The translations under genes were made by a program, and so were the position numbers. Below, piece after piece: positions 16,306 through 26,352 of a stretch of 64,000 bases of DNA. The number at the start of each line of letters is the position of its first letter. Position 1 is the first letter of the stretch. The notes below the pieces were generated by a model. The model made no database searches. It saw nothing but the letters and a program-made list of their open reading frames with translations, and was not told the DNA's origin. The stretch lies in the NCBI GenBank assembly GCA_017303505.1, contig JAFLCP010000007.1, positions 1 to 64,000 on the forward strand. The letters are read 5' to 3'. Source of the DNA: Planctomycetota bacterium (GTDB taxonomy: Bacteria > Planctomycetota > Planctomycetia > Pirellulales > Pirellulaceae).

Positions 16306-19300
16306 TTATAGCGGTTCAGCCCGATGCTCTTGGCCGCGAACGCCGAGGTTTCCGTAACGATGATAGTCGCGGCAGAGGCTTTGTTCTTCGACATACCATA
16401 GAGCTTCGACGCGAGCGACATTCGTCACTGGTCGATCAGCCAGATGGATATGAGATTCAAGGGCTGCGGCGCGAATAGGTAGCGGAATGGAATTGGCGTC
16501 CACGTATCGAACTCGATCCGTTTGCTTCAAGCGAATAGCTTCCGCCAAGACCTCATCGCTTTCCTCAATAAACTCGATGCTGCCGGCTAGGTCTTCTGTC
16601 CAACGATCTAGCCAATCGACGAGGTTGCGATCGAAGCGTGGAGCGACGCTAACGGTGACACGACAACCGACTGAGATCGCGGCAATCATGCGAATTAATG
16701 TATCTTCTAAACGATCGCTGAGTTCGACGCGGATGCGAACTTGTTTTACTGGAAGATAACGTCGCAGATTATCTTGACCGATCAATTTGAAATGATCGTG
16801 GGACTCGAGAATTTCTTGATTGGCAAAGCGATCGAAGTCGAGCAGAGCTTCTCGAATCAGCGGTTTGAGGCCAGCAATGGCTGCTGGTACCTGTTGATCC
16901 TTTTCAAGATGTTCCCAGAGGGTCTTGAGTTTTCCAATTTGTGGAGTTGCTTTCGTTGGCGTTCCTGTTGCGCGAGCCGACGAGGGCTTCGGTCGCACAT
17001 GGCAAAGTGGAATGATGTAGTTGGGCCCACCCGCTTTGATACCTGGGCCAAATGCGCTTAGGCCGAGACCACCGAAAGGTTGTCGCAACACAATCGCTCC
17101 GGTTGTCGGACGGTTGATATACAAATTCCCCGCCTTCAAATGGCTCGACCACAGTTCTTGTTCGCGGTCATCCAAACTCTCAAGGCCGCTGGTCAAACCG
17201 TATCCAGTGGCGTGAACTAATTCGATTCCGTGGGTGAGATTCTTGATCTTCATCACGCCCAATACGGGACCGAAGAGTTCTGTTTTATGAGTGAAGCTAT
17301 CAGGTTGAACGTTCCACTTTACGGCGGGGCTGTAGAGGGAAGGATTGTCGTCGAGTTGTTTGGGGAGAACGGCCCATGATTCGCCATGTTCTAGTTCTTT
17401 GAGGCCACGCAGCAACGCGCCACTTGGCGGACGAATCAATGGTCCCATCTTATTCTTTAGTTCCCACGCAGAGCCGACGGACATGCTGCTAATGGCATCG
17501 ACAAATTGTTCACGGAAGTTCGTGTCCTCAAAAACTTCTTCTTCCAAGAGGAGCAATGATGTGGCACTACATTTTTGGCCTGAGTGAGAGAAGGCGGAAT
17601 GGAGAACATTTTTGATGGTTTGATCTCGATCGCTTAGGCCAGTTACGATGGTCGCATTCTTGCCGCCTGTTTCGGCCAGCAAGAATAAGTGTGGATGTTG
17701 TTTGAGCATTCGCTGCGCGGTTTCGGTGCCGCCGGTGAGGATAACCGCTTTCACATCTGGATGACCGACAAGAGAGTTGCCTGCCACACTTCCGCTGCAT
17801 GGGATGAGTTGTAATGCGGTACGTGGCACACCAGCGGCCCAGAAACACTCGCATAAAACCGAGGCGGGTAACACCGTATCGGAAGCTGGCTTCAGCAGCA
17901 CCGTGTTGCCGGCTGCGAGAGCTGCAGCGATACCACCGCATGGAATTGCGATCGGGAAGTTCCAGGGAGAAATAACGGCAACTACACCGAGAGGCTGAAC
18001 TTCAATATCGTCGCGTTTGGCCAAATCGAGTGCACAGCTTGCATAGAATTCTACGAAGTCAACCGCTTCGCTGACTTCGGGATCGCTTTCAAGCAAAGTC
18101 TTGCCACCGTCTGCCAAAGCAGCGCCCATGAGGTCGCCACGGCGAATGCGAATTTCTTGGGCGACTCGTCGCAAAATGTCATAGCGATGTTGGGCGGTGA
18201 GTTGTCGCCAGCCAGATGGGTCGTCTGCGGCGCATTGGATGGCGCGACGGATTTGAGCTGGGCTCGCTTGATGATATCGAGCTGCGACGACACCTGGGCG
18301 CGATGGATCGGGCGATTCGTAGAGGCCACCTTCGCCAGATTGTGTCTCACCTGCAATGCACAGCGAAATTTCGGTGGCGCGGCTATCGCAACGTTGTTTC
18401 CATTGCTCGATGATCGATTCTGCCCAAAGGCCATTTTGTACAAGCGAGACATCGGTGTCGGGCTCATTTTGGAATTCTTCCCAACGTTTAGGTTCTGCGG
18501 GTTGGGCAGGTGGTAGTCGTCGATCTTGAGTTCGGCGCGGCAAGTCTGAAACGGTTTTCGAAAGTTCAAGCGACGAGATGAAACCTGACTCCAAGCGTTT
18601 CCAAGCAGGGCTTCCAACTTGAATGTTGAAGGCGTGTCTTAGAAAGTTATCAGGTCCAGTATTTTCATCGAGGCGACGGATCAGGTAACCGATGGCGTTG
18701 ATGAATTCATGTTGATGACAGGCTGGCGCGTAGAGCAGAACATTGTGGCAAAGTTCGAAGAGAGCTCGCCGTTGATGGTTGGCCATGCCTTCGAGCATTT
18801 CGAATTGCACTTGAGCGAGCACACCTTGGCTCGCTGCGAGGACGACTGCATAAGCGAGATCGAAAAGATTGTGGGAAGCGACGCCGAGTTGTACGGCTTT
18901 GTAGATATCGGGCTGCATGCCGTACTGCAACATACGTTTGTAGTTGGCATCGGTTTCGTATTTGTGTTTGTAGGGCGCTTGAGGCCAGCCGCGCAATGAA
19001 GCTTCCACTCGCTCCATTTCCATGTTTGCCCCTTTAACAACGCGGACCGTGATGGGGGAGCCGCCCCGACGGACGCGTTCTTGAGCCCACTCGGATAATT
19101 CGCGTTGAACGATATGTGAGTCGGGGATGTAAGCTTGAAGAGCGATGCCGGCTCGGACTTGTTCAAGGCCAGGTCGTTCGAGAGTCTTCATGAAGGTGTC
19201 GGCGGTGAGTCGCAGATCGCGATATTCTTCCATATCGAGATAAACAAACTTCCCCACTTTGGAGCCATCGGGACGCACAAACACTTCGCGGGCTGCTGCG

Positions 19301-20004
19301 CGAAGGATAAGTTCCAAGCGATCGCAGAGAACTTTGACGGTGTGGCGACGAGCGATTGCGGAGATCTGCGAATAGATCGTTGAGATTTTGACCGACATGC
19401 ACTCGATTTCAGGACGCTGCAAGGCGGCTAAGTATTTTTCAAGACGCCGCTGGGCTTCTTCTTCGCCGAGAATGGCTTCGCCCAAAAAGTTGACGTTCAT
19501 GCGCAGACCTTCTTCGCTGCGAGCTCGCAAATGCGAAGAGAGAACATCAGCTTCGGCGGGAAGGATTACGTTGGCCGTTTCCTTTCGCATTTTGTCTTTG
19601 ACTAAGGGGACGGCTACGCCTGGCAAATAATTGCCAAACGATTGAAAGCCTTTGAGCAAAGTGCGATCAAGCATACTGAAGAATCGAGGTACACCTTGCA
19701 CGTCGAGGATATGCACCATTTGATCGACAACGCGCCAAGCGGATTGGCTGCGAAAGGACTGGTCGGTCATTTGGGTGAGAATGGCTTTGTCGCTTGGGTG
19801 TTGGATCATGCGATCCAGTTCGGCTTGTTGGCGACGCTCGGCGGGAGTTTGCAATTTGGCAGCTCGGTTTTGCAGCATGCGAGCTACGGCCAGTGCTGCT
19901 TCTACGAGTCGATCAGAATTGGAATTGGGGCTTAATTCTCCGATGAGACGGGGAACATTGACAGAAGCCAGCGACTGGTCAGCCGATATTTCTGGCGCAC
20001 TCAT
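16306..20004 (-). CDS. putA: Bifunctional proline dehydrogenase / L-glutamate gamma-semialdehyde dehydrogenase
   Basis: This 1,232-residue enzyme oxidises proline to pyrroline-5-carboxylate (FAD domain, roughly residues 100-490) and then to glutamate (NAD domain, roughly 570-1010). PRODH motifs include VNFLGEAILGEEEA, LDMEEYRDL, AYIPDSH and RVVKGANMEMER. The aldehyde dehydrogenase part shows ISPWNFPIAIPCGG, catalytic Glu in LLAETGGKNA (~773) and catalytic Cys in SGQKCSAT (~810). A C-terminal ~200-residue region follows. No N-terminal ribbon-helix-helix domain is present, so it is not a DNA-binding autorepressor. It stands alone; proline catabolism would feed electrons to the quinone pool. Confidence 0.95.
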   Translation of the reverse strand: MSAPEISADQSLASVNVPRLIGELSPNSNSDRLVEAALAVARMLQNRAAKLQTPAERRQQAELDRMIQHPSDKAILTQMTDQSFRSQSAWRVVDQMVHILDVQGVPRFFSMLDRTLLKGFQSFGNYLPGVAVPLVKDKMRKETANVILPAEADVLSSHLRARSEEGLRMNVNFLGEAILGEEEAQRRLEKYLAALQRPEIECMSVKISTIYSQISAIARRHTVKVLCDRLELILRAAAREVFVRPDGSKVGKFVYLDMEEYRDLRLTADTFMKTLERPGLEQVRAGIALQAYIPDSHIVQRELSEWAQERVRRGGSPITVRVVKGANMEMERVEASLRGWPQAPYKHKYETDANYKRMLQYGMQPDIYKAVQLGVASHNLFDLAYAVVLAASQGVLAQVQFEMLEGMANHQRRALFELCHNVLLYAPACHQHEFINAIGYLIRRLDENTGPDNFLRHAFNIQVGSPAWKRLESGFISSLELSKTVSDLPRRTQDRRLPPAQPAEPKRWEEFQNEPDTDVSLVQNGLWAESIIEQWKQRCDSRATEISLCIAGETQSGEGGLYESPDPSRPGVVAARYHQASPAQIRRAIQCAADDPSGWRQLTAQHRYDILRRVAQEIRIRRGDLMGAALADGGKTLLESDPEVSEAVDFVEFYASCALDLAKRDDIEVQPLGVVAVISPWNFPIAIPCGGIAAALAAGNTVLLKPASDTVLPASVLCECFWAAGVPRTALQLIPCSGSVAGNSLVGHPDVKAVILTGGTETAQRMLKQHPHLFLLAETGGKNATIVTGLSDRDQTIKNVLHSAFSHSGQKCSATSLLLLEEEVFEDTNFREQFVDAISSMSVGSAWELKNKMGPLIRPPSGALLRGLKELEHGESWAVLPKQLDDNPSLYSPAVKWNVQPDSFTHKTELFGPVLGVMKIKNLTHGIELVHATGYGLTSGLESLDDREQELWSSHLKAGNLYINRPTTGAIVLRQPFGGLGLSAFGPGIKAGGPNYIIPLCHVRPKPSSARATGTPTKATPQIGKLKTLWEHLEKDQQVPAAIAGLKPLIREALLDFDRFANQEILESHDHFKLIGQDNLRRYLPVKQVRIRVELSDRLEDTLIRMIAAISVGCRVTVSVAPRFDRNLVDWLDRWTEDLAGSIEFIEESDEVLAEAIRLKQTDRVRYVDANSIPLPIRAAALESHIHLADRPVTNVARVEALWYVEEQSLCRDYHRYGNLGVRGQEHRAEPL

Positions 20005-20705: not shown

Positions 20706-21063
20706 GATGGGATTCAGGACTGTAAAGTGAGGGGAAAAACGGCGTGCGAGTCATATAGCATCGCTAACGATAGGATAACCTTCAGGGCGGTTTGAGAAAA
20801 TGGCCAAAACGGAAAGGGTTGGTGTTGAATGGGGGGAACTTGTTAGAAAAAGGTTGGGTGGTGGGCTGAAACGGGGAGAATCGCCCTAAATGTAGGGTGA
20901 GGTTGGGGGACAGTTGGGGGTGGTGCGAGTGAGTCGTTGTTGGGAAATGCGCTGGGCGAGATTGGGGGAAAAGTATTCGCAAAAATCGCTATTGGCCCGA
21001 AAAGAGTAGTTGGTGTAGGTTATCGGGTGACCCAGTTTGGACCATAAGGCTAAGGAGGAGCCA
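20706..21063. other. 358-bp divergent intergenic region
   Basis: This region separates nusB (minus) from the large coiled-coil gene (plus). It is purine-rich on the plus strand, with several GGTTGG/GGGGGA runs between 20800 and 20970. It ends in a strong ribosome-binding site for the plus-strand gene. No coding frame or RNA gene was recognised. Confidence 0.45.
21052..21058 (+). promoter_or_regulatory. Strong ribosome-binding site AAGGAGG
   Basis: AAGGAGG at 21052-21058 lies five bases before the ATG at 21064. It decides between that ATG and an in-frame upstream codon at 21037, which has no such signal. Few genes in this window have so perfect a site. Confidence 0.75.
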
Positions 21064-24000
21064 ATGTATCTGGTTAGCATGGATGTTGATCCCGAAAATC
21101 TAGTGGATTCTGCCGGTTCCCTATCAAACCCAATGGCACATGTGCCGTCGGCGGGGAGCGGAGTATTGGCGAATCGAGCAGCTTCTGCGGCAGCAGAGTC
21201 GATATCTCACATTGGTCCTCTGAATGAAGGTCTCAATGCTATATGCGTCCCGACGGCGTACAACACGTCGAAGATGATGCGTCGGTTAGTTAGTGGTTTG
21301 TACGGACCGTTAGCGATGCAGGTTGGCGCTACGGCGTTGCCGATGCGTCAGATTACATGGAGCGATGCATCGGGGTTATTCCGAAGATTTCATTACGCGA
21401 ACAATTTGCATGGTGAGCGCGAGTATCGTGTTGAGCATCGTCCTTTGTGGAGCGATGCGTTGGCATGGCGATCGTTGGCTGCGAATGAAGGTGGCGCTGT
21501 TCCACAAATCGATCGTGACTTCTACGAAACGGTGTATGCGCTTGGAAAAGACCAATGTGTAGCGCCGCAGAGTTTGTGGAATGCGGCGCGTCAGCAAGGA
21601 TTATTGCAAGCCCCGGTTCCCGCTTATGTTCCAAAGGTGCCGAATTTAGAGTTAGAAGATCTTCAACGTCGCCGTGCGTCTTTGGCGAATGAAATCGACT
21701 ATTTTGATCGCTTGCCAGTTCATGATCGAACCTATTCCACCAGAGACGATTTGCGTGGTGAGCAGCGTCGTTTGTTGCAGGATATAGATTTGTTGCAGCG
21801 TGATGTGCCCACAGAGGCAGAGTTGCTGGAGCAACGAAGATATTATTCACAGCGCGAGCAGTGGCAGCGAGAGTTGGTAGATGCAACAAATCGAGCTGAG
21901 CCGTTGAATAGTCAGGTCCAGCGTTTGCGGCAGGAGCAGCAGCGATTGGTCGAGGAATTGCATCTGGCATCGAAGAACAGTCGGCCGGCTGTAGTGACGG
22001 AACGCTTAGTGACTGAGACTCTGGTGCCTGTTGTGACAAAGAGTCATATGGATCGATTGAAGGAGATCGACACACAGTTACATCATTGGCAACGAACGGC
22101 GACCGACATTGCAACGCATCGTCAGCAGCTAGAGCAATCGGCTGCGCAATTGCGAGTTGAGAAACAGAGTGATTTGAGTAATCCGTATGCGGTTGTTGAT
22201 CCACGTGAGCCGTTGCGAGCGTTGGAGAATCAGCTTCTGCAAACGCGACGTCAATTGGAAGATTTGGTGCAGGTCTACAACCATGGGGCTCGGGGAAATA
22301 GCAATGTGGATGTTTCCTTGCCATCGACACTCAAGTCGATGCAGGAGAATCTATACGAAGTTTGTCGCCAGATTTCTCGAAAAGAATCGGATACTGCTTC
22401 GCGTCAATTGCATGAGCAAATCGAGCAGTTGGGACGTTGTGAAAAGGAACTTCATACAGCGATTGAGAAGCTGCTCGGCGATCGATTGCAATTGTTGCAG
22501 CAGATTGCGGCAGAGATGGGGATTCCCGTTGAGCAACTGAAATTGAAGTTGCCGTTTCAGTGTGGTTGTGAGAATCACGGAGTCAACTTACATAGCTATC
22601 GTTCGAATCAGTTGCCACTGGAAGTTAAGACAGTGGTGCGCAAGTCGATTGATGATGGAGCCGAGTTAGCGATTCGGGAGAAGTTGCGTGATGTTGAGGC
22701 TCGTTTGCGTGCGACGCAGGGAGACCATGCAGCGTTGTTGGTGGAGATTCGCCGACTTGAAGAGCGATTGAAGGATGAGCCTAAGGTTCGAGTTATCGAT
22801 ACAAGTCGCTTGATGATGCTTCGCGAGCAGTTGGAGCGGGTTGAGCAAAGGCTGCGACAGTGGGATCACATCGATGGTTTGCGGGCCGAGTTGCGAGAAT
22901 TGGATCGTCGCATCGCCGACCTGCGAATGGTCGAGTATCGGCAACCTGTGGTGGCAGAGAGTGGTTTACACTCCGCAGCGAATGTGTGGCATGAGAAGCT
23001 TACTGCAGTTCCCGGGCACGCGATTCACGGACGTCCACTTCCGACATGGGCGTGCGATCAGGATTGGAATCACTACTATTCTCGATCTATTTCACCGGGT
23101 TATTTGGACGCAGTGAGGCCTTTGGATGCCGCGTCGGGCCGATCGGTTGAGGAGTATCGCATTGCTACGTTAGCGATTCGGTTAGCGATTGTTGAAGCGA
23201 TGATGGGACGAGGCCATGTGGCCCCATTGTTGATCGACGATTGCTGGAACGAACTCTCTGTTGCGACCTCGAAGCAGCTGATGAGCGTGTTGGCGGAAGT
23301 GGCACGACGTGGTATGCAAGTTGTCGTATTGACTGCGGATCCTCGAGTTAGCACGTTAGCGCGGGCACATCAGGCTTGGATTTGTCACGTTCGGCCATTG
23401 GTTGAACGTGCACCGGAACCTATGCCTGTTGTCGAGAGCGTGATTGTTCCTGCACCTGCGAAAACATTAGATGCTGCGGAAGTGAATCGACGGCTTCATG
23501 CTATTGCCGATGAACTTTATGCACAGCAAGAGCCTACGGTTGTGCCACTGCGGTTGGCTGAGCCGCCTGAGCCTGTGGTGGTGAAGAAACCGAAAGTAAA
23601 GACATATTATGTTGATGGGCGAGGTCCCTTTTATTTGTCGCGAAGCAGTCGAATCGAAGATGCTCCGTCGATGGACGAAGCGATGGCAACTCGTTTACGG
23701 CGGGTTGGCATTCAGTCGATAGGTAATCTGTTGGATGCAAATCCGGAGAAGGTTTCGCTGAAACTCGAGGATACTTCGGATGATGATTATTATCGCCAGA
23801 ACGGTTTGAAGAATCACGCCAGAGGGAAGTCAAGTCGGTATGTTTCACCGAAGCGAGTCGCGCGCTGGCAAGCAGAATCGCGGTTGGTGTGTGAGGTGCC
23901 GAATGTACGAGCATTCGATTCGCGAGTGATGGTTGGTTGTGGAATCAAGACACCGCGACGCTTAGGAAAGTTAACACCACGAAAGCTAGCCAAGCGAGTT

Positions 24001-24846
24001 GAGCGATTCTTGCAAACCGAGCGCGGTCGGCAGGTGCTTCGTAGCGGAAATGGTTACGAAGTGGCACGCATCACCAGTTGGATCGTGGAAGCGAATCGTG
24101 AGCGTAATCCAGCGGTTTCGGCAGACGATCGTGATCGATCTCCCAGATCGGAGCGGAGGAAGAGTGGGCGTGCTGAACGCGATCGCTCGCGATTGGAAAG
24201 AGATTCTAAGAATTCGATGTCCGCTGCAGAGCGTCGTTTGCAGCAGAAGATGCGCGAACGCCTGCGTGCGGAGAGGCCGGAACGAGAAGTAGAGCCAGTT
24301 GTGGCGGAGGAGCCAGTGGCGGTGAAGCGAAAACGCGAGGTCCGTCGTGTCGTAACTTCCAAGCCCGTTGCGGCAACTGAGACAGTGACAAAGCAGTCCA
24401 CCAAAGTGCTCAAGTTCTTCTTGAGTCAGGATCGACCTGTGGTGGATGCTCCAAGCATTGGGCCGAAGGTTGCGCAGCGAATGAATAACTGTGGCATTTT
24501 CACGGTTCGTGATTTCCTGCAAGCGGACCCAGAGTCGTTGGCATCTCGTTTAGGTGAGTCACGTGTAAGCGGGGAAGTTATTCGTCAATGGCAGCAACAA
24601 TCGCAATTGGTATGCCGTGTTCCCGATATGCGCGGCCATGATGCCCAATTGTTGGTAGCTGCCGGGATTAGTTCGCCTGAGCGTTTAGCGAAATCAAATC
24701 CAGTTAAGTTGTATGAGGAAATCCGTACGTTAGCGGAGAGCACTCAAGGCAAGCGCATGTTGCGAGGCGCGACTGGTCCAGATTTGGACGAAGTGAGAAG
24801 CTGGGTCGAGTCCGCTGGTCTCTGCCGCCCCCTCGCCGCAGCCTAA
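21064..24846 (+). CDS. Rad50/YhaN-like coiled-coil protein with degenerate ATPase head and two DUF4332-type domains
   Basis: Order of parts in 1,260 residues: an N-terminal head segment (~40-80) reading HIGPLNEGLNAI then VPTAYNTSK (62-70), where a P-loop GPNxxGKST would be expected; long coiled coils (~190-495 and ~530-640); a CGC..H turn at 500-505; a C-terminal head half with a signature-like SGRSVEEY, Walker-B-like PLLIDDCW (Asp725-Asp726) and LTADPR (~756-761), where the usual H-switch His is Ala758; then two DUF4332-type helical modules (~850-1005 and ~1113-1255) joined by a basic, Arg-rich linker. The architecture is that of an SMC/Rad50-type protein. The missing Walker A Lys suggests it does not bind ATP normally. 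Monocistronic; function unknown, possibly structural DNA binding. Confidence 0.8.
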   Translation: MYLVSMDVDPENLVDSAGSLSNPMAHVPSAGSGVLANRAASAAAESISHIGPLNEGLNAICVPTAYNTSKMMRRLVSGLYGPLAMQVGATALPMRQITWSDASGLFRRFHYANNLHGEREYRVEHRPLWSDALAWRSLAANEGGAVPQIDRDFYETVYALGKDQCVAPQSLWNAARQQGLLQAPVPAYVPKVPNLELEDLQRRRASLANEIDYFDRLPVHDRTYSTRDDLRGEQRRLLQDIDLLQRDVPTEAELLEQRRYYSQREQWQRELVDATNRAEPLNSQVQRLRQEQQRLVEELHLASKNSRPAVVTERLVTETLVPVVTKSHMDRLKEIDTQLHHWQRTATDIATHRQQLEQSAAQLRVEKQSDLSNPYAVVDPREPLRALENQLLQTRRQLEDLVQVYNHGARGNSNVDVSLPSTLKSMQENLYEVCRQISRKESDTASRQLHEQIEQLGRCEKELHTAIEKLLGDRLQLLQQIAAEMGIPVEQLKLKLPFQCGCENHGVNLHSYRSNQLPLEVKTVVRKSIDDGAELAIREKLRDVEARLRATQGDHAALLVEIRRLEERLKDEPKVRVIDTSRLMMLREQLERVEQRLRQWDHIDGLRAELRELDRRIADLRMVEYRQPVVAESGLHSAANVWHEKLTAVPGHAIHGRPLPTWACDQDWNHYYSRSISPGYLDAVRPLDAASGRSVEEYRIATLAIRLAIVEAMMGRGHVAPLLIDDCWNELSVATSKQLMSVLAEVARRGMQVVVLTADPRVSTLARAHQAWICHVRPLVERAPEPMPVVESVIVPAPAKTLDAAEVNRRLHAIADELYAQQEPTVVPLRLAEPPEPVVVKKPKVKTYYVDGRGPFYLSRSSRIEDAPSMDEAMATRLRRVGIQSIGNLLDANPEKVSLKLEDTSDDDYYRQNGLKNHARGKSSRYVSPKRVARWQAESRLVCEVPNVRAFDSRVMVGCGIKTPRRLGKLTPRKLAKRVERFLQTERGRQVLRSGNGYEVARITSWIVEANRERNPAVSADDRDRSPRSERRKSGRAERDRSRLERDSKNSMSAAERRLQQKMRERLRAERPEREVEPVVAEEPVAVKRKREVRRVVTSKPVAATETVTKQSTKVLKFFLSQDRPVVDAPSIGPKVAQRMNNCGIFTVRDFLQADPESLASRLGESRVSGEVIRQWQQQSQLVCRVPDMRGHDAQLLVAAGISSPERLAKSNPVKLYEEIRTLAESTQGKRMLRGATGPDLDEVRSWVESAGLCRPLAAA

Positions 24847-25257: not shown

Positions 25258-26352
25258 TTAGGCACTAGATGATGCCGGCGATTTATCCGGCTCAGTTAAT
25301 AGTCCTTTTTTTTCTGCGGGGCAGCGAAGCTTATGGCCTCCTAACTCTGCAGCTTTCTTGGCCAAGCTGTCTTTGTTGCCCACAAAGCTCCTGAAAAGCG
25401 TGTCATACGCGGTGATGAGCTCTAAAGCATTTTCCCAAGAGATTTTCAAACGCTCGAAAATGGGCGGAATTTCAGGCGGAATGAATCCCTTTTTGTCTTC
25501 GCGAATGATCCTTCCGACTATATCGATCGATAGAAGATACTCTTGTAGCGAAATTCCCAAGAAGCCAAAGTCGCTCGCACGAGTCGGTAGGACACTAGTC
25601 CGTTGCCGCGTAGTTTCATCGTTTGAGATTTCAAGCGGCGATATGAATGCGTCCGGTCGCTTTTCTGCAGGGACTTGAGGGGTCGCCTCCTGCATTTCAG
25701 CAGCCTTAATTTGGCAGTAAACGGAGGTGTATTCGCTCGTTTCCGGGGTTTGGCATGCGTTTGCTCGGATAGGATTTAGGTCCACATACATCGCTCCGAC
25801 AAAAGTAGATAGATTATCCAATAGCACTTTCACTTTGTATCGATCTTCCCAAAAGTGTCCTTTCTTTTGGTCGACTAGATTGAACAGTTTTGCACAGTAG
25901 CCATTAAGTGCCCACATGAAATAGCTGACACTAGAGAGACGCGAACGCAATTCGGCGATTCGCTTTTTGTTCTCGGCAAGCTTCTTGATGTCGGCTTCGG
26001 TAGGTCCTTCTGGGGTCTTGTTTCTGAAGTCTGCAAGAGCTTGGCAAAAGCCAGGGCATATCACTAGCCATCGTCTTGCCACTTCTTCGTCATCCATTTC
26101 AGCAACTAATGAGGGTCTATTGCGCAAAATCACATGAAAATGATTCTCAAGTATTGAGAAACGCAGCACATCAATGGCAAATGCGGATGCCAGTTTCCTC
26201 AGTCGGAAAAGGATCACATCTCGCCGTCGATGATACTTACACTTTGTGCTCAACTTGTCGTTCATAAAGAAATCTTGGCGAACGCAGCGCTGTGTGATGT
26301 GGAGGATGTTCTCTACAGCTGGGTTCGCAATCTGAGTCCGTTTTCTTCGCAT
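25258..26352 (-). CDS. REP-associated tyrosine transposase (IS200/Y1 HUH-type)
   Basis: This 364-residue protein is a Y1-type HUH endonuclease. The N-terminus has HITQRCVRQDFF; the metal-binding HUH motif is His71-Phe-His73 in ENHFHVIL; the likely catalytic Tyr is Y189 in YVDLNPIRA, a position matching the YIHLNPVRA motif of RAYTs. It belongs to the longer subtype with an HRRR..I..RL.KLA..FAIDV segment. The C-terminal third is unassigned. The gene looks intact, with AAGGAG six bases before the ATG. The upstream DNA (26400-26520) is AT-rich and unlike its neighbours, suggesting horizontal origin. Confidence 0.85.
   Translation of the reverse strand: MRRKRTQIANPAVENILHITQRCVRQDFFMNDKLSTKCKYHRRRDVILFRLRKLASAFAIDVLRFSILENHFHVILRNRPSLVAEMDDEEVARRWLVICPGFCQALADFRNKTPEGPTEADIKKLAENKKRIAELRSRLSSVSYFMWALNGYCAKLFNLVDQKKGHFWEDRYKVKVLLDNLSTFVGAMYVDLNPIRANACQTPETSEYTSVYCQIKAAEMQEATPQVPAEKRPDAFISPLEISNDETTRQRTSVLPTRASDFGFLGISLQEYLLSIDIVGRIIREDKKGFIPPEIPPIFERLKISWENALELITAYDTLFRSFVGNKDSLAKKAAELGGHKLRCPAEKKGLLTEPDKSPASSSA

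Follow-up and report, generated by a model that had tools for sequence, protein, structure and literature searches.

The window, by which we mean the whole 64,000-nucleotide stretch of DNA analysed here, contains at positions 21064-24846 of the forward strand a single open frame of 1260 codons, which closes with a stop codon at 24846. Its start is fixed at ATG 21064 by a strong Shine-Dalgarno sequence that ends 4 bases 5' of it. The gene is flanked upstream by nusB (- strand) and downstream by an ORF of 364 aa (25258-26352, - strand) that has no Pfam match and that, judged by eye, we take to resemble a REP-associated transposase; no Mre11/SbcD-like partner gene adjoins it. Further upstream, 16306-20004 (- strand) encodes a fused proline dehydrogenase and aldehyde dehydrogenase of the PutA-like kind. 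The elements of the gene are the following:

21052..21059, + strand: Shine-Dalgarno sequence AAGGAGGA, read directly
21064..24846, + strand: Rad50/YhaN-like protein P0001, 1260 aa, with C-terminal DUF4332 domains
21064..21441, + strand: N-terminal head half, residues 1-126 (AlphaFold2 model and alignment)
21097..21195, + strand: window-specific insert, residues 12-44, between strands 1 and 2 (model and alignment)
21247..21273, + strand: Walker A slot V62-PTAYNTS-K70, replacing GxxxxGK[ST]
21646..23001, + strand: coiled-coil arm region, residues 195-646 (helices of the model)
22561..22578, + strand: CxCxxH motif C500-G-C502-E-N-H505, at the place of WCQCHDH in sister proteins
23131..23397, + strand: C-terminal head half, residues 690-778 (HMM of intact members only, E 1.5e-20; model)
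23140..23154, + strand: signature slot RSVEE (residues 693-697), LSRGT in motif-complete members
23224..23241, + strand: Walker B PLLIDD (residues 721-726), both acidic residues present
23332..23340, + strand: H-switch slot T757-A758-D759, with the His column at D759
23626..24105, + strand: DUF4332 copy 1, residues 855-1014 (HMM E 2.4e-43)
24397..24831, + strand: DUF4332 copy 2, residues 1112-1256, with an HHH_5 hairpin (Pfam 3.1e-33; HHH_5 1.6e-10)

A Pfam scan recognises the C-terminal end of the protein only, as DUF4332 (PF14229; 115 bits against a curated cut-off of 23.2, in two copies), HHH_5 and Cdd1, and leaves AAA_27 (PF13514) unmatched. A preliminary description of this DNA had ascribed to the protein the layout of an SMC/Rad50-type ATPase, with a split head and long coiled coils, and profile, model and structure search all bear this out. 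An HMM built exclusively from family members with an intact P-loop finds residues 693-782 of the window protein (E 1.5e-20). The N-terminal head half, by contrast, scores only 3.2 bits against the intact-member HMM and is not recognised by itself, owing to its insert; this half is positioned by way of the multiple alignment together with the model. The AlphaFold2 model (residues 1-1020, 64 sequences; mean pLDDT 76.8, pTM 0.44) places strands at residues 2-8, 48-50, 57-61, 94-101, 104-112 and 119-126 and a helix at 68-80; the head strands and this post-slot helix mostly reach pLDDT 85-96 (block 51-80 at about 85-96), whereas the insert is mostly of low confidence (residues 18-35 and 37-41 below 50). 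The model drew on the same family and is thus only in part an independent check on the alignment. A PDB search with it returned Rad50 first (7zr1_D, E 7.4e-10; 7zr1_C, E 1.2e-9), followed by MukB, Lamassu LmuB, JetC and Smc. Because the coil is flexible, the TM scores of these matches reach only 0.13-0.20 over the query, and support for a split ABC-type head with an intervening coiled coil thus derives from ranking, E-values and element order rather than from global superposition. Both DUF4332 copies are strongly conserved by HMM; copy 2 is modelled as all-helical (pLDDT 93), and its hairpin resembles DNA polymerase iota (probability 1.0) and the RAD51C N-domain (0.97), with E-values that are non-significant.

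Which of the ATPase motifs are left in this head? Residues 61-70 read CVPTAYNTSK, and the slot VPTAYNTSK (62-70) was correctly reported as lacking GK[ST]: GxxxxGK[ST] is absent from all six frames of both strands between 20901 and 25000, ruling out a misread frame or frameshift. Sister proteins run from MQLVSMDVD to FGPFSPGLNAIFGTRGSGKST (L079) or from MRLVSIDID to LGPFVAGLNAVWGARGAGKST (L075/L076), and relatives carry Walker A sequences such as GTRGSGKST or GARGAGKST at this place. The window protein begins with MYLVSMDVD (residues 1-9), continues through an insert of about 33 residues without counterpart in relatives, and resumes with ISHIGPLNEGLNAICVPTAYNTSK; ISHIGPLNEGLNAI precedes the slot. 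Walker B was likewise rightly recognised, as PLLIDD ends in the Asp-Asp pair that includes the catalytic acid. The segment formerly described as signature-like is not intact, since RSVEE stands where motif-complete members have LSRGT and the signature glycine of S-x-G is gone. The H-switch His is indeed lost, at D759 and not at Ala758 as first proposed, when the column is set by the YhaN-type motif (FTCHEH in the paralog described below). By descent the protein belongs to the Rad50/YhaN lineage; judged from its motifs it does not qualify as an ATPase, and canonical ATP binding is predicted to be lost.

YhaN, which defines AAA_27, is the Rad50-like ATPase partner of YhaO, and intact members of our family pass the AAA_27 cut-off. 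The split head and the motif wording LSRGT, LPLVLDD and FTCH, as found in the own-genome paralog, are YhaN-like; however, the window protein lacks the AAA_27 match, the P-loop, the signature glycine and an adjoining partner, and it has two DUF4332 domains instead. It is like Rad50/SbcC in that Rad50 is the best fold match of the model, and unlike it in having no ATP site and, probably, in carrying CxCxxH (500-505) in place of a CxxC zinc hook at the coil apex. Coalescin ClsN and Sph are archaea-specific SMC-related proteins, of which coalescin acts on chromosome structure; both carry Walker A, Walker B and a zinc hook, whereas the window protein has no Walker A, and the survey of archaeal SMC-related proteins discarded sequences without that motif (PMC9389158).

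The preliminary description had regarded the protein as representing a family that kept the architecture but not ATP binding. This holds for the window protein and not for the family: a census of 95 distinct homologs in the alignment, almost all of them from Pirellulaceae, finds Walker A intact in 51, lost in 36 and intermediate in 8 (six with GK[ST] but no first Gly, two with GxxxxGKK), and 40 further loci display a similar spread. The signature S-x-G is present in 16/51 intact and 0/36 lost members, the H-switch His in 11/95, and acidic residues at both Walker B positions in 28/51 intact and 8/36 lost members, the window protein being one of the eight. A tree made without the Walker A columns requires, by parsimony on lost and kept states, at least nine changes. 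Intact homologs had been expected to point to a local mutation or a misreading, yet a one-off mutation is ruled out because 36 homologs have lost the P-loop, on those nine or more changes. This is hence not a P-loop-less family but one that repeatedly loses its P-loop. A sequencing, assembly or reading error is exceedingly improbable: the assembly has 295 contigs and the genus has no second genome, but no frame holds a P-loop, the sequence around the degenerate slot codes normally, and the motif is also missing from 35 further homologs, which come from assemblies of their own.

The window protein falls into a clade of 35 rows that also contains 12 proteins, 11 of them intact (the exception, L072, reads EPTGASKT at the slot), the intact sisters L075 and L076, and 20 Pirellula proteins, all of which (20/20 sampled) are without P-loop. 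Its loss is separate from that of the Pirellula clade, since a tree that groups the window protein with Pirellula, as a single common loss would demand, is rejected by the AU test (p 5.4e-5), although the branch of the window protein is long. In Pirellula members such as L100 and L103, the coil spans about 190 aligned residues, compared to about 500 in the window protein, and CxCxxH is absent. Rhodopirellula-type members (L128, L131, L132, L134, L095) combine an intact Walker A with an ETHREL-like sequence in place of the D-D/E of Walker B, and may bind ATP without hydrolysing it. Since the window protein has no close relative (best 33%), selection was gauged on other P-loop-less members. Simple Nei-Gojobori estimates, some from saturated pairs, put dN/dS in close P-loop-less pairs at about 0.00-0.09 over the N-terminal head (0.19 in L140/L142) and at 0.02-0.23 over the C-terminal head; pairs that have kept the P-loop give 0.03-0.13, and the linker gives 0.16-0.80. 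P-loop-less relatives are under purifying selection.

Matches to the family at E 1e-10 were obtained in 234 of 241 Pirellulaceae genomes when the YhaN type is included in the count. The combination of head and DUF4332, in contrast, was seen in the order-wide sample and the loci examined only in members of the window's family and of a second family, f7, which matches the Lacipirellula locus L130. Elsewhere in the order the matches place DUF4332 on other proteins; it is fused, for instance, to a zinc-dependent phospholipase C-like domain at L058:7177-8769(+), with similar ORFs in L053 and L059. Plasmids gave no tblastn match, and a literature search, beyond whose reach lay most subscription journals, found a single paper that mentions DUF4332 and no account of a head-plus-DUF4332 family.

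No gene is common to all family neighbourhoods. The only recurrent neighbour, found beside early-type, motif-complete members, encodes a protein of about 400-440 aa; it adjoins 10/95 members and likewise stands beside the DUF4332-less YhaN type (L060-L068) and a paralog in the window's own genome (L153). A Pfam scan of three of its products gave no match, and singly 5/18 match Metallophos; a profile of all 18 matches SbcD (E 1.6e-8) and, in the PDB, Mre11. Unlike in Mre11/SbcD proper, most metal ligands are lost: GNHD of SbcD has become GGTVDE-like and GHIH has become GGQSA or GGNH, and only some members retain the first DxH and GD motifs. All 10/10 members beside this gene keep Walker A, whereas it stands beside none of the 36 P-loop-less members in the flanking DNA examined. 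Such degenerate SbcD/Mre11-like genes adjoin Rad50/YhaN-like ATPases across the order, with further examples at L110, L117, L118, L121, L125, L129, L133 and L138. In the own genome the SbcD-like gene L153:9347-10618(-) adjoins the YhaN-like paralog L153:5608-9324(-), on a contig (G000:C68) different from that of the window gene. The paralog has all motifs intact (GPNEAGKTT, LSRGT, LVLDDVLVNFD, FTCHEH), has a coil that includes a hydrophobic stretch resembling a membrane hairpin, and carries no DUF4332; the window protein is the one DUF4332 protein of this genome. The genome also encodes a normal SMC (C223, 1216 aa), and the window gene is therefore no SMC replacement.

What might a Rad50-like protein without an ATP site do? 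We infer, at roughly even confidence, that the window protein is a Rad50/YhaN-type pseudo-ATPase whose role would be to tether DNA, or to bridge the nucleoid as a rod, independently of ATP. With S-x-G gone from all 36 members without P-loop, even an ATP site shared with a partner head seems unlikely. Consistently, DNA tethering by Rad50 has been reported to be independent of ATP binding or hydrolysis (PMC4494100). We envision that the protein would run no ATP-driven cycle of engagement and disengagement, its heads instead forming a fixed fold or dimerisation platform, while the coil would act as a spacer joining two molecules, perhaps via CxCxxH, and the two DUF4332/helix-hairpin-helix tails would grip DNA. 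The structural nucleoid or DNA-binding role suggested in the preliminary description is plausible through these tails. That CxCxxH is a metal-binding hook would be a guess; the motif sits where the coil of the sister clade is well conserved and is retained in only 6/36 P-loop-less members. Retention of the Walker B Asp-Asp pair counts against this reading.

Alternatively, the window protein may be a regulatory or asymmetric subunit: its pseudo-head would join the intact YhaN-like paralog, or else that paralog's Mre11-like partner, and modulate the complex so formed. Pseudo-subunits are commonly paired with active ones among ABC ATPases, and an intact paralog with a degenerate SbcD-like neighbour is available in the same genome. 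We nevertheless consider this rather unlikely. Each head of an ABC dimer relies on its partner for the signature motif, which the window protein has lost as well. The two genes also reside on different contigs, and their coils differ, given the membrane-hairpin-like stretch of the paralog and its want of DUF4332. A less probable possibility is that the head works as a sensor rather than a motor and binds nucleotide non-canonically, or another small molecule. The Walker B acids and the strong conservation of the head in P-loop-less clades would fit such a role, but a common new ligand site would need a conserved slot, and the slot sequence varies from one P-loop-less lineage to the next. Finally, the long branch (1.29), the window-specific insert and the joint disappearance of several motifs could be read as the decay of a gene released from constraint and devoid of function. 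This we regard as highly improbable, since the 1260 open codons with their good Shine-Dalgarno sequence, the strong conservation of both DUF4332 copies and the low head dN/dS in P-loop-less relatives all argue against it.

A probable history may also be sketched. The starting point would be a YhaN-YhaO-like (that is, Rad50-Mre11-like) pair in which the active site of the nuclease disappeared; the ATPase would have acquired DUF4332, later become separated from the nuclease gene, and lost the signature and the H-switch as well as, in many lineages, its P-loop, an order that we read from co-occurring states and not from a rooted reconstruction. More tentatively, and at somewhat longer odds than the tether itself, it is conceivable that what began as a Rad50-Mre11-like repair machine was converted step by step in Pirellulaceae into a non-enzymatic system for structuring the chromosome, leaving a graded ATPase-to-scaffold series today. 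If true, the steps would comprise loss of the nuclease metal site, gain of the helix-hairpin-helix tails with departure of the partner, and repeated loss of the P-loop. A lesson for annotation is that a Mre11/SbcD-like family with most of its metal ligands gone would be labelled a nuclease by homology.

Teaching presents SMC and Rad50 proteins as machines driven by ATP. The repeated loss of the ATP site, in proteins whose head and tails are still selected, would imply that the architecture does work of its own, such as tethering or bridging, that is separable from the work of the motor. With homologs whose sites are intact, half-lost or lost, some of them in culturable genera (Rhodopirellula, Roseimaritima, Lacipirellula), this question is directly testable.
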